This document shows positions 5,793 through 9,326 of a stretch of DNA of 64,000 nt, in pieces (position 1 is the stretch's first letter; every line of letters starts with the position of its first letter). The notes below the pieces were generated by a model. That model was not told the DNA's origin and did not search any database. It was given only the letters and a program-made list of their open reading frames with translations. Location: positions 496,001 through 560,000 of the forward strand of contig NZ_CP032152.1 of assembly GCF_003555505.1 (NCBI RefSeq). Reading direction: 5' to 3'. This stretch comes from Thermosynechococcus sichuanensis E542 (lineage in GTDB: Bacteria; Cyanobacteriota; Cyanobacteriia; Thermosynechococcales; Thermosynechococcaceae). Both the position numbers and the translations under genes were made by a program.

Positions 5793-7001
5793 TTAGGTCT
5801 CCACTAGACCACAGTATTTCTCCACACAGCGGACAAACAATTCAACCCCAATACTTAAAACGGTTTCGTCAAAGTCAAAGCGGGGATGGTGGTGGGGAAA
5901 ATCTAACCCCAGTGTGCCATTAGCTGACCCCAAAAAGAAGTAACAGCCCGGAACAGCATTGAGAAAGAAGGACATATCTTCGGCTGCCATGGTTTGGCAA
6001 TGGGGGGTGACGCCGGCGGGTACCTCCACTACCGATTCGGCAACTGTTCGCACCAACTCCGCCATCTTGGCATCGTTAATGGTCGGCGGGTACATGCGCT
6101 GATAGTCAAAGCGGTAAGTGGCACCATGACTCTGGCAGATACCCGCAATCACCTGCTCAATCCGCTGGGGTAGCCAGTCGCCCAGCTCGGGCTTGAAGTA
6201 GCGAACTGTGCCCTTAAATGTGGCGCGATCGGCAATCACATTCTTGGCGGTGCCCGCATGTACTGCCCCCACGGAGATTACTGCGGTTTCGAGGGGATCC
6301 ACGTTGCGGGAAACGATGGTGTGCAAGGCGGTAATAATCTGCGCAACAACGAGAACTGTATCCACCGTAAACTGGGGTAAAGCTGCGTGTCCCCCCTTAC
6401 CGTGGACTTCACACTCAAAAAATTCCGCTGCCGCCATCAACGGCCCACTCCGCACGCCCACCGTACCCACGGGCAGAAAATTCCAGAGGTGTAGGCCAAT
6501 AATGCCATCCACTTTGGGGGCATCGAGCACCCCCGCTTCAATCATGGGCTTAGCCCCACCGGGGCCTTCTTCTGCTGGTTGAAAGATGATTTTGACCGTA
6601 CCAGCAAAATCGCGGTGCTGAGCAAGGTATTTCGCCGTACCAAGGGCGATCGCTGTGTGACCGTCGTGCCCGCAGGCGTGCATTTTCCCCTCATGGAGAG
6701 AGCGGTAGGGCGTATCGTTTTCCTCCTGCACCGGCAAGGCATCCATATCGGCGCGAATCGCCAGCACTGGCCCCGGTCGCGTGCCCGGAATCAACGCCAC
6801 AATTCCGGTTTCCGCAATGCCTGTGCGATGCTGAATGCCCCATTGCCGCAGTTTTTCACTGACAAAGGCCGCCGTCAGGTGCTCCTGAAAGCCCAATTCC
6901 GGACGCTGATGCAAATAGCGCCGCCACTGCACAAGTTCGGGCTGGAGGGCAGCGACCTCTGGACGCAGTTTGCAGCTCAGTTGGGGGAGATGAAAGGCCA
7001 T
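5793..7001 (-). CDS. M20 family metallo-amidohydrolase (hippurate/IAA-amino acid hydrolase type)
   Basis: 402-residue predicted zinc hydrolase that would cleave N-acyl amino acids or similar amides in the cytoplasm. Metal-site motifs of the M20D group are visible: RADMDALPVQE, MHACGHDGHTA, FQPAEEGPGGAKPM and the dimerisation-domain start HGKGGHAALP. C-terminal H-PRFDFDE completes the fold. The true substrate cannot be told from sequence. It is the upstream gene of a pair with the response regulator. Confidence 0.9.
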   Translation of the reverse strand: MAFHLPQLSCKLRPEVAALQPELVQWRRYLHQRPELGFQEHLTAAFVSEKLRQWGIQHRTGIAETGIVALIPGTRPGPVLAIRADMDALPVQEENDTPYRSLHEGKMHACGHDGHTAIALGTAKYLAQHRDFAGTVKIIFQPAEEGPGGAKPMIEAGVLDAPKVDGIIGLHLWNFLPVGTVGVRSGPLMAAAEFFECEVHGKGGHAALPQFTVDTVLVVAQIITALHTIVSRNVDPLETAVISVGAVHAGTAKNVIADRATFKGTVRYFKPELGDWLPQRIEQVIAGICQSHGATYRFDYQRMYPPTINDAKMAELVRTVAESVVEVPAGVTPHCQTMAAEDMSFFLNAVPGCYFFLGSANGTLGLDFPHHHPRFDFDETVLSIGVELFVRCVEKYCGLVET

Positions 7002-7074
7002 TGAGGCAATGATGCGATGGCATTAGGGACTGACTTCTAGGATAAACGATGTCCCTGGCCAAAGGCTTCCCCTG

Positions 7075-7109
7075 CATTCACTTGTTCGACTGAGAAAGGC
7101 TCCTAAGCA
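7075..7109. repeat. Degenerate CRISPR repeat abutting the array with no spacer
   Basis: The segment TTCGACTGAGAAAGGCTCC (7085-7103) matches the core of the array repeat (TTCGGCTGGGAAAGGTTCC) at most positions. It ends directly against the first intact repeat at 7110. The match continues weakly upstream (CATTCA for CATTTA) with a four-base insertion. Decayed repeats are normally at the leader-distal end, so this marks the left side as the old end of the array. Confidence 0.6.
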
Positions 7110-8221
7110 GTTTCCATTTATTCGGCTGGGAAAGGTTCCCAGCACATTGAAGGTGAGGATATCGCTCCTGCACTTCAGCGTTTCCATTTATTCGGCTGGG
7201 AAAGGCTCCCAGCACTTGCATGGGTTAGTTCTTCTACCAAGTCAAGGGCAGTTTCCATTTATTCGGCTGGGAAAGGCTCCCAGCACTTGGCTTGATGGGA
7301 AGAGTCGAGCAAATGACGGGAGTTTCCATTTATTCGGCTGGGAAAGGCTCCCAGCACATTCTGAAGGACAGGTAACATCTGTACGTCCAATATCGTTTCC
7401 ATTTATTCGGCTGGGAAAGGCTCCCAGCACATGGCACCTTCGTGCACAAGCTTTCGACAGCTTGTGTTTCCATTTATTCGGCTGGGAAAGGTTCCCAGCA
7501 CGCTTCCCTTCTTGAATCCCTAGAAGTTCAAGTACTGCGGTTTCCATTTATTCGGCTGGGAAAGGTTCCCAGCACACACCCTATTGAATTTGTAGAAAAC
7601 GTATGGCTGGAGTTTCCATTTATTCGGCTGGGAAAGGTTCCCAGCACTTGCAAATGCGCAACCTTGATCAATTTAAGGCCAGGTTTCCATTTATTCGGCT
7701 GGGAAAGGTTCCCAGCACTAAATTATCACGTAATCAGTCTTTTGGCCGAAGTGGTTTCCATTTATTCGGCTGGGAAAGGTTCCCAGCACAAGAAACAAAC
7801 CGCATTTTGGTTGACATTCGTGTTAACGTTTCCATTTATTCGGCTGGGAAAGGTTCCCAGCACTATTTCAACCAGACTTAGTGAATGTCTCTGCATTAGA
7901 GTTTCCATTTATTCGGCTGGGAAAGGTTCCCAGCACCAGAAAATCTCCGTCTTGCCTGCCCCTGTGGGAGTTTCCATTTATTCGGCTGGGAAAGGTTCCC
8001 AGCACGGGAAACCGTTTGTAATCAAGCTTGGACGGGAAGTGTTTCCATTTATTCGGCTGGGAAAGGTTCCCAGCACTCGGTGGCTACGCCGGCCGATTTG
8101 CCCACTGGGGGTTTCCATTTATTCGGCTGGGAAAGGTTCCCAGCACTCGCGGATTTTTTGATTTATACTTAAAATGTAATCAGTCGTTTCCATTTATTCG
8201 GCTGGGAAAGGTTCCCAGCAC
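7110..8221 (-). CRISPR. CRISPR array: 16 repeats of 36 bp, 15 spacers
   Basis: Repeats start at 7110, 7180, 7251, 7322, 7395, 7466, 7540, 7612, 7683, 7754, 7828, 7901, 7970, 8041, 8111 and 8186; spacers are 33-39 bp. On the plus strand the repeat begins GTTTCCATTTATTCG and then has a perfect stem GCTGGGAA, loop AGG, stem TTCCCAGC. Repeats 2-5 carry a T to C change in the second arm (GGCTCCC). I infer transcription from the minus strand: there the repeat ends ATGGAAAC, close to the common 8-base crRNA tag ATTGAAAC, the A-rich leader-like DNA is on the right, and the degenerate repeat is on the left. No cas gene is in the window, so type cannot be fixed; the strong hairpin fits Cas6-processed type I or III systems. 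Confidence 0.97.
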
Positions 8222-8708
8222 TCCGCCTCCTTGGAAGAGGCTCTAGAAGTAGCATAGCACAGATCATTTTCAAGCACCTAGGGGAGATGATTTTTTTGTT
8301 TTTGTAAAATTTTTGGATCCGCAGTGATGAGGTCAGTCAAAGTCTCTCTGGAAGCCTGTTTTGGGAAAATTCAAGCACCTCTAAATCTGTTAGAAATTCA
8401 TCAAAGCCTTGCAGAGACTGCGTTTGGGAAAATTGCCGAGCTGAGAGGATATTTTAGTCCAGAGGTGCTTGCATCGCTACACAAGTGAAGTCATCAGATG
8501 TTGGAACCCAGACCAGAGAGGCCGCTCCCTAGAGGAAAAGTCGTGTTTTGGACAAGGCTAAGATTTTTTCGTCAGAAGCTCCTGACGGAGGAAACATTTG
8601 TTATTATGGCGAGTAGTTCCCTAGGGCAAAAATTAAAATAGTTCAGTATTGGATATTACAGTTTGCCAATTCTGAATCCTAGGGTTCCTTCCACCAAACG
8701 AGGATGTT
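8222..8708. other. Gene-free leader-like region with repeat-like motifs and long inverted repeat
   Basis: 487 bases without a gene. Next to the last repeat is a small hairpin (GCCTC at 8225, GAGGC at 8237). A T-rich run at 8290-8312 is A-rich on the inferred crRNA strand, as leaders are. CAAGCACCT occurs at 8271 and 8372, and an inverted copy at 8461-8471 makes a perfect 11-bp inverted repeat (8372-8382 with 8461-8471). Two stretches, 8361-8378 and 8423-8441, resemble the 3' part of the CRISPR repeat. A further 6-bp hairpin lies at 8570-8587. This may hold the leader and promoter plus a small structured RNA; only the leader role has contextual support. Confidence 0.55.
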
Positions 8709-8930
8709 ATGGTTCAATCCCTTCAGTATTCCATCGAACTCGTCAAAGATGAAGCACGACGACTGGTGGCCAAAGGTGTGGTAAGTCGGCAGCAGCCCAT
8801 TTACACCCTCTGCCAGTTTGTGCCCGTTCGGGAGTGGCCCCTCATTGAGGCAGAGCTAGAGCGTTGTGACTTTATGCTGCGCGATCGCATTGGCGACTTG
8901 ATTGGTCGTGAATGCTGGGATAACGACTAA
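8709..8930 (+). CDS. DUF4327 family small protein
   Basis: 73-residue cyanobacterial protein with the family pattern: MVQSLQYSIELVKDEARRLV, then VSRQQPIYTLCQFVP and a C-terminal LRDRIGDLIGREC. Function is unknown. ATG 8709 has a plausible GAGGA ribosome-binding site just upstream. It is the first gene right of the CRISPR leader region and is transcribed away from it. Confidence 0.85.
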   Translation: MVQSLQYSIELVKDEARRLVAKGVVSRQQPIYTLCQFVPVREWPLIEAELERCDFMLRDRIGDLIGRECWDND

Positions 8931-8972
8931 AGAGCAATCATGAAGGGCACCGCCTTCCCCTATGCGCCAATC

Positions 8973-9326
8973 CTAGGAGGTGGGTGCCTGAGAATCCTGC
9001 TGGAGGTCTTGGCGAATTGCTCGCAGGGTTGCAAGGAGGGTTTGAATATCTGCGGCTAAGTCAGCACTCTCCCGCGGAGCAGGCGAAGGGGTCGAGGCGG
9101 GTTGTTGCTGTTGGGCAATAAAGGCTTGGATCAGTTCGCGGGCTTGCGCTTCGGTGAGGCGGCCTTTCTCAGCACAGACCGTGGCCAGTTGACGGGCATC
9201 CACCCGCAGTTGCGTCAGGTATTCTTGGCGCTTGGCCTCATCCTGGAGGGATTCAATGGCAGCAGCCGCCGCTCCAATACTGGTGTAGTAAAGTTGCTGT
9301 GCAAGTTCGAGGGGATTGCGATCCAT
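8973..9326 (-). CDS. Conserved hypothetical helical protein
   Basis: 117 residues, acidic and Ala/Gln-rich, predicted to be two helical blocks (residues about 5-70 and 88-112) joined by a Pro/Ser/Gln linker (QQQQPASTPSPAP). It resembles small phasin-like or coiled-coil proteins, but I recognise no defined family. It sits 58 bases downstream of panC-cmk on the same strand and could be cotranscribed with it. Confidence 0.65.
   Translation of the reverse strand: MDRNPLELAQQLYYTSIGAAAAAIESLQDEAKRQEYLTQLRVDARQLATVCAEKGRLTEAQARELIQAFIAQQQQPASTPSPAPRESADLAADIQTLLATLRAIRQDLQQDSQAPTS

Follow-up and report, generated by a model that had tools for sequence, protein, structure and literature searches.

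In organisms that lack IHF, it is an open question how the integrase of a CRISPR system locates the correct end of the correct array. Santiago-Frangos et al. are said to have described, in 2021, phased leader motifs and leader folding in type I-E and I-F systems. The nearest tested case to the leader analysed here is the type I-D leader of Synechocystis. Excerpts of PMC10212523 describe a cyanobacterial type I-D leader of 202–220 bp with three conserved motifs (I–III; Kieper et al. 2019) that enhance spacer uptake; one of them is likened there to the integrase anchoring site of type I-E, and Synechocystis is said there to lack an IHF homologue. For type I-F, passages of PMC12259127 report structures in which upstream motifs and folding bring leader DNA to the integrase. 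In the type I-A system of Sulfolobus islandicus, according to excerpts of PMC9456107, Cas1 binds or prefers a leader-proximal stem-loop and Csa3a binds a distal motif. Adaptation in trans is described in parts of PMC8092290, where a type II-C system serves a VI-B system and the two leaders share little.

We analysed a 64-kb stretch of DNA (called the window; C1:496001–560000 of a 2.65-Mb genome) of Thermosynechococcus sichuanensis. Its CRISPR leader contains a word, GGTGCTTG(A/C)AAA, at −57 (site P) and −158 (site M) from the first repeat, and once more, inverted, near −250 (site D). With the Synechocystis leader it has in common three conserved motifs in a cyanobacterial leader; the I-D word, TTGCCAAA, is found at −156 and −53 in the Synechocystis 6803 I-D leader. 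It differs in its word, in its Cas1 family, in the inverted third copy, and in being known here from sequence; the comparison was made with three I-D leaders. In general plan, upstream motifs and a proposed folding of the leader recall types I-E and I-F. A hairpin at the leader–repeat junction and a distal motif, both recognised from the letters alone, recall the S. islandicus I-A leader. As far as the excerpted account of the II-C/VI-B pair goes, the likeness is that a single Cas1 appears to serve an array belonging to another type, at a locus devoid of cas1; the difference is that in the window's genome the whole leader is common, with 69–92% identity. We consider it likely that the three copies of the word are phased DNA anchors for a spacer-integration complex and that they form a platform common to two kinds of array.

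The features of the locus are collected in Table 1. The array repeat carries single-base variants towards its left end, so that the leader must lie at the right, from 8222 upward, with the array read on the minus strand. A degenerate repeat copy at 7085–7109 abuts the left end of the array without a spacer, as judged by eye, and no cas gene was recognised by eye among the ORFs beside the array. When a 487-base query was compared with its own genome, four more matches were obtained, two at 92% and two at 69% identity, within about 8229–8478; similarity to the two 92% copies spans 8229–8478 of the window leader. The region thus lies at the growing end of the array and is conserved between arrays, as CRISPR leaders are, and in the genus as a whole its copies precede 17 arrays of at least six repeats.

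Table 1. Position and strand of the array, the leader and the leader elements in the window.
Feature	Coordinates	Strand	Remarks
CRISPR array	7110–8221	−	16 repeats, leader end at right
Array repeat, leader-proximal copy	8186–8221	−	GTGCTGGGAACCTTTCCCAGCCGAATAAATGGAAAC as read on the minus strand
CRISPR leader, whole conserved unit	8222–8478 (right end about 8478)	−	four further copies in the same genome
Leader–repeat junction hairpin, 7 bp, 3-nt loop	8225–8241	−	covariation examined in 18 distinct 30-base leader ends of the genus
Extended −10 like element, TGTGCTATGCT	8251–8261	−	at P+17 in 22/30 Thermosynechococcus copies
Anchor motif P, AGGTGCTTGAAAA	8267–8279	−	GGTGCTTG begins 57 bp before the repeat
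A-tract between M and P, AAAATTTTAC	8304–8313	−	conserved in Thermosynechococcus copies
Anchor motif M, AGAGGTGCTTG	8372–8382	−	GGTGCTTG begins at −158; distance to P 101 bp
Anchor motif D, inverted copy, GCAAGCACCTCTGGAC on the minus strand	8457–8472	−	distal end of the leader; AGAGGTGCTTGC reads on the plus strand at 8461–8472

A preliminary description of this DNA had pointed to repeat-like fragments and an inverted repeat inside the leader, and every string it named is present where it was placed. We found TTGGGAAAATTCAAGCAC at 8361–8378 and TTTGGGAAAATTGCCGAGC at 8423–8441; CAAGCACCTCT (8372–8382) is the exact reverse complement of AGAGGTGCTTG (8461–8471), and CAAGCACCT occurs at 8271–8279 too. 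The shorter word AGGTGCTTG was counted three times in the 64-kb window, each time inside this leader (0.77 expected; 4 of 100 shuffles reach three), and when the leader was shuffled 5000 times with its dinucleotides preserved, 73 shuffles contained a perfect inverted pair of 11 bp. The two exact copies of TTTGGGAAAATT are likewise real, but leaders belonging to the other repeat class do not conserve this word.

Altogether, 31 leader copies were identified in 10 of 11 Thermosynechococcus genomes, 30 of them by a search in which split matches were joined, and one, in genome G008, by hand beside its Cas4-Cas1. The genus alignment contains 30 copies, since the G006 copy at C1:2108039, which is still counted, and a repeat-only match (L022) were left out. 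The motifs of the preliminary description are conserved in these close relatives, and their distances are nearly constant: P lies 57 bp from the repeat in 21 of the 23 copies in which this could be measured, M lies 101 bp from P in 19 of 26, and the D–M distance ranges from 84 to 110 bp and is 90 or 92 bp in 25 of 29. In G008, beside an array of 26 repeats, D has diverged (L089) and both the 57-bp and the 101-bp distance are kept. One further copy (L018) has an insertion of 18 bases at the distal D motif. An exact 19-mer was also matched in Marinomonas and Thermoproteales.

The leader is not tied to one kind of repeat. In the window's genome three leaders, 89–100% identical, stand before arrays with repeats A and B, and both 69% leaders stand before C-type arrays, one of them directly after cas2. 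The repeat behind the two 92% copies is GTGCTGAGGCTTGTCCTCAGCCGATTAAATGGAAAC; behind the two 69% copies it is GTGC(T/C)TCTACCTCTGATGCCG(C/T)AAGGCGTTGAGCAC. One leader type is therefore common to repeats ending in TGGAAAC, the window's kind, and to repeats of type I-MYXAN, two classes that have little in common beyond GTGC at the leader end. Mean spacer lengths overlap as well (35.1–36.3 in A/B arrays, 32.8–36.4 in C arrays). Within Thermosynechococcus, GTGCT occurs both at the start of the repeat and in the leader word, and we considered whether the two form one co-evolving signal; the idea was rejected because in other genera the first repeat bases vary and the word does not.

A single cas1 was found in this genome. 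It encodes a Cas4-Cas1 fusion which matches the I-MYXAN model, and the order of the locus is Cas4-Cas1 gene, cas2, 69% leader, array and I-MYXAN operon. A leader placed after cas2 and before the array, in an I-MYXAN locus that encodes Cas4-Cas1, was thus seen for this paralogue (L005) and in other genomes; the window leader sits at a remote array whose neighbouring ORFs were judged by eye, and its P motif lies at −57, close to the position of about −55 typical of I-MYXAN leaders. The III-B (Cmr) genes, including Cas10, are located about 0.8 Mb away and have no cas1 of their own in the window's genome. Judging from the repeat type, the TGGAAAC (A/B) arrays would feed the III-B effector. Since the same leader precedes these arrays and the III-B system has no cas1 of its own, one integrase probably serves both kinds of array, and it probably recognises the leader and not the repeat body.

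The presence of arrays largely follows the presence of the enzyme. In five genomes with full-length Cas4-Cas1, arrays of at least six repeats were found behind 16 of 19 leaders, as compared with 1 of 12 in the five other leader-holding genomes, which are without it (Fisher p 9e-5, a descriptive value because leader copies within one genome are not independent). There are exceptions in both directions: G007 keeps a 7-repeat array without Cas4-Cas1, and G002 has Cas4-Cas1, yet three of its four leaders are without arrays. In G008 an additional array (L090) carries a different repeat (GTTTCCATTCGATCGCC...) and is found near a second, distant Cas1.

The layout was then compared with I-MYXAN leaders of other cyanobacteria. 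Among 388 genomes sampled from the class, 78 gave a match to Cas4-Cas1 (E <= 1e-60), including matches that are fragments or members of a divergent group. From 64 named loci we obtained 50 leaders with I-MYXAN repeats, after leaving out eight duplicates, an identical leader (L162), a further duplicate (L130) and four loci without an I-MYXAN repeat (L108, L152, L153 and L155); L101 and L156 are the same locus and were used once, as L156, and two of the 50 (L139 and L141) are near-identical. These leaders align weakly, with 0.470 per base pairwise against 0.417 for shuffles (1225 pairs), which indicates that there is little else in them that can be aligned. A plain word count, made without a position weight matrix (PWM), nevertheless placed CTTGCAA (at most one mismatch) at −51/−50 in 42 of the 50, against a mean of 0.39 per position. 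With a PWM (GGTGCTTGCAAAA), P exceeded the 95% shuffle threshold in 49 of 50 leaders, M in 39 and D in 37, so that M fell below it in 11 and D in 13. The matrix was built from P sites and the sites were sought in set windows, and the modes of the distances are for this reason firmer evidence than the pass counts. P lies 53–56 bp from the repeat in 49 of 50 leaders (55 bp in 34, 54 in 10, 56 in 4 and 53 in one). The M–P distance is 98–102 bp in 24 of 38 leaders and 109–114 bp in 12, with 91 and 104 bp once each, and the D–M distance is 94–98 bp in all 31 leaders with both sites above the threshold.

Cas4-Cas1 is also encoded on plasmids; seven matched and five were looked at, of which four have P at −55. 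The fifth shows no recognisable repeat within the stretch and carries a TnpB gene after cas2; in this plasmid, from Gloeothece citriformis (L178), the TnpB-family gene directly follows cas2, at the expected place of leader and array. At three divergent Cas4-Cas1 loci (L152, L153 and L155; 56–58% identical) the repeats are of the TGGAAAC type and matches to the motif are weak or distant.

A scan that makes no use of the motif gave a similar spacing. We took each 9-base word from −75 to −38 and looked for a second copy, with no more than one mismatch, at a distance d upstream. The best-supported distance was 100 in the 50 I-MYXAN leaders (8 leaders; 22 hits fell in a 5-bp window, where the mean is 2.2), 101 in 23 cas1_CYANO leaders (14 leaders) and 103 in the I-D set (2 of just three leaders), so a direct duplication at about 100–103 bp is present in three leader sets. 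After similar leaders had been removed, 21 of 46 I-MYXAN and 11 of 16 cas1_CYANO leaders had a duplication at d 98–104, the control range of 68–74 giving 3 and 1. The duplicated word is particular to each set: GGTGCTTGCAAAA in I-MYXAN, CGCGCA in cas1_CYANO (peaks at −153 and −52) and TTGCCAAA in I-D. Both the cas1_CYANO and the I-D set are matched by one Cas1 model, but they differ in repeat and word. Together these two sets cover 26 of 31 loci; the I-C set covers 8 of 10 and the I-E set 15 of 20, the remaining loci having no array within the locus. The duplication at about 101 bp was not found in the 8 I-C leaders, which show a weak peak near 79–80 bp instead (L213–L222), or in the 15 cyanobacterial I-E leaders, one of which (L241) is perhaps wrongly oriented. 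The I-C peak at 79–80 bp corresponds to two helical turns less than 101 bp. Many of the cas1_CYANO relatives at L183–L212 have GGGATTGAAAC-type repeats, CGCGCA near −52 and −153, and ACCTTGAAAA at −41.

Could the motifs instead be sites for a transcription regulator, or parts of a promoter, that set the expression of pre-crRNA rather than integration? In Thermosynechococcus P lies just upstream of the extended −10 like element, which would be a promoter, and thus at a possible −35 position, so that a role in transcription is possible; the A-tract between M and P may likewise be a bend or a promoter element. In addition, a TAAAAT-like word (at least 5/6) was found 40–42 bp upstream of P at 13 sites in the 50 leaders of other genera. 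We nevertheless regard this explanation as unlikely. The best −10-like match of G008 is found not at P+17 but 11 bp further down, at P+28, while P–repeat and M–P stay at 57 and 101 bp. The spacing of the motifs is rigid relative to the first repeat, and the duplicated word varies between leader sets, whereas the distance of about 101 bp persists.

That the inverted copy is the terminus of a mobile element carrying leader and array together is very unlikely. Leader copies do occur at differing sites across genomes, with the window's site empty in most relatives, and the similarity ends abruptly near D. At the window's site, however, no target-site duplication or matching far end was seen by eye, and in other genera the D–M distance is fixed inside leaders that stand beside cas2.

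The preliminary description had also suggested a small structured RNA, in which the inverted arms would form a hairpin in the leader transcript. The arms are perfectly complementary over 11 bp in the window, and both are as in the window in 12 of 29 Thermosynechococcus copies that have them. Among these 29 there is not one compensatory double change, and in eight of them one pair or more is broken. For 30 leaders from other genera, all with the three sites above the threshold, D–M agreement (0.739) equalled the permuted mean (0.739) and was reached by 1027 of 2000 permutations, thus without covariation, and M matched its direct copy P slightly better than D (0.770 against 0.739). The arms of D and M match as copies of a single word; pairing is not the reason. 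M and D also lie upstream of the promoter-like elements, and a permissive Rfam scan of 7000–9000 gave three matches, all far below gathering scores. The suggestion is thus unsupported, and a hairpin of these arms is scarcely credible. As for decayed repeats from an older part of the array, the fragments look like TGGGAAAGGTTCCCAGCAC, but scored against the repeat of this array their best local match is no better than chance (reached by 31% of 500 shuffles), the same leader stands, 92% identical, before arrays with a different repeat, and outside the genus the word changes little where the first repeat bases vary, so that this suggestion can be dismissed.

The third suggestion of that description, leader motifs recognised during spacer integration, agrees well with the position of the sites, their conservation, their rigid spacing and the way they track the Cas1 family, and we take phased anchors to be the probable function of the three copies. 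Several observations count against it: the diverged D of G008, the leaders in which M or D is below the threshold, the array exceptions in G007 and G002, the possible −35 position of P, the three divergent Cas4-Cas1 loci and the small size of the I-D set. For the binding partner, the folding of the leader and the effect on acquisition we infer the following course. The integrase would be the Cas4-Cas1 fusion with Cas2, probably assisted by a host DNA-bending protein, and the complex would dock on the first repeat. The leader would fold back and bring P, about 55 bp upstream, and M, roughly another 100 bp away, into contact with the complex or its helper; D would close the platform, and the folded platform would restrict integration to the leader end of the array.

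More tentatively, and with somewhat more doubt than confidence, we extend the anchor reading to cyanobacterial Cas1-Cas2 integrases of several families, which might use a common ruler independent of sequence, each with its own word, present as a pair of direct copies; the pair would be spaced by about 101 bp, and its near member would lie about 55 bp ahead of the first repeat. In Thermosynechococcus, a single integrase might thereby equip the III-B system with arrays of quite different repeats by means of a portable leader. Such a leader, working with unrelated repeats, would explain continued spacer uptake by a III-B system without its own cas1. A layout of 55 + 101 bp that outlasts most of the sequence similarity can be tested sharply by changing the spacing. 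The I-MYXAN leader layout was not found in the titles and abstracts searched, a search to which Kieper 2019, Santiago-Frangos 2021 and Buyukyoruk 2025 did not belong, and the novelty of the triple-site layout is therefore provisional.

The hairpin at the leader–repeat junction behaves differently from the distant arms. In the 18 leader ends, 73.8% of cells were paired (0 of 500 shuffles reach this) and 12 cells were changed on both sides (1 of 500); its covariation was 0.428 against 0.277 for shuffles (0 of 500 reach it), and versions slid along the sequence gave at most 0.233. Two further measures were unexceptional, the count of doubly changed pairs (246 of 500) and that of pair types (86 of 500), and two of the seven pairs are broken, in 7 and 12 of the 18 sequences. 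It thus covaries by three of five measures, and relatedness inflates such counts.

The surroundings of the arrays vary between genomes. The site of array and leader (window 7052–8558) is empty in 7 of 10 relatives, where the flanking matches are roughly 70–230 bp apart; in G005 a leader remnant is present at this site in the opposite orientation, and in G009 there are apparent remnants of repeats. At four other loci (L007, L010, L013 and L016) the same flanking genes were seen, by eye, beside different leader copies in varied combinations, which suggests rearrangement between arrays.
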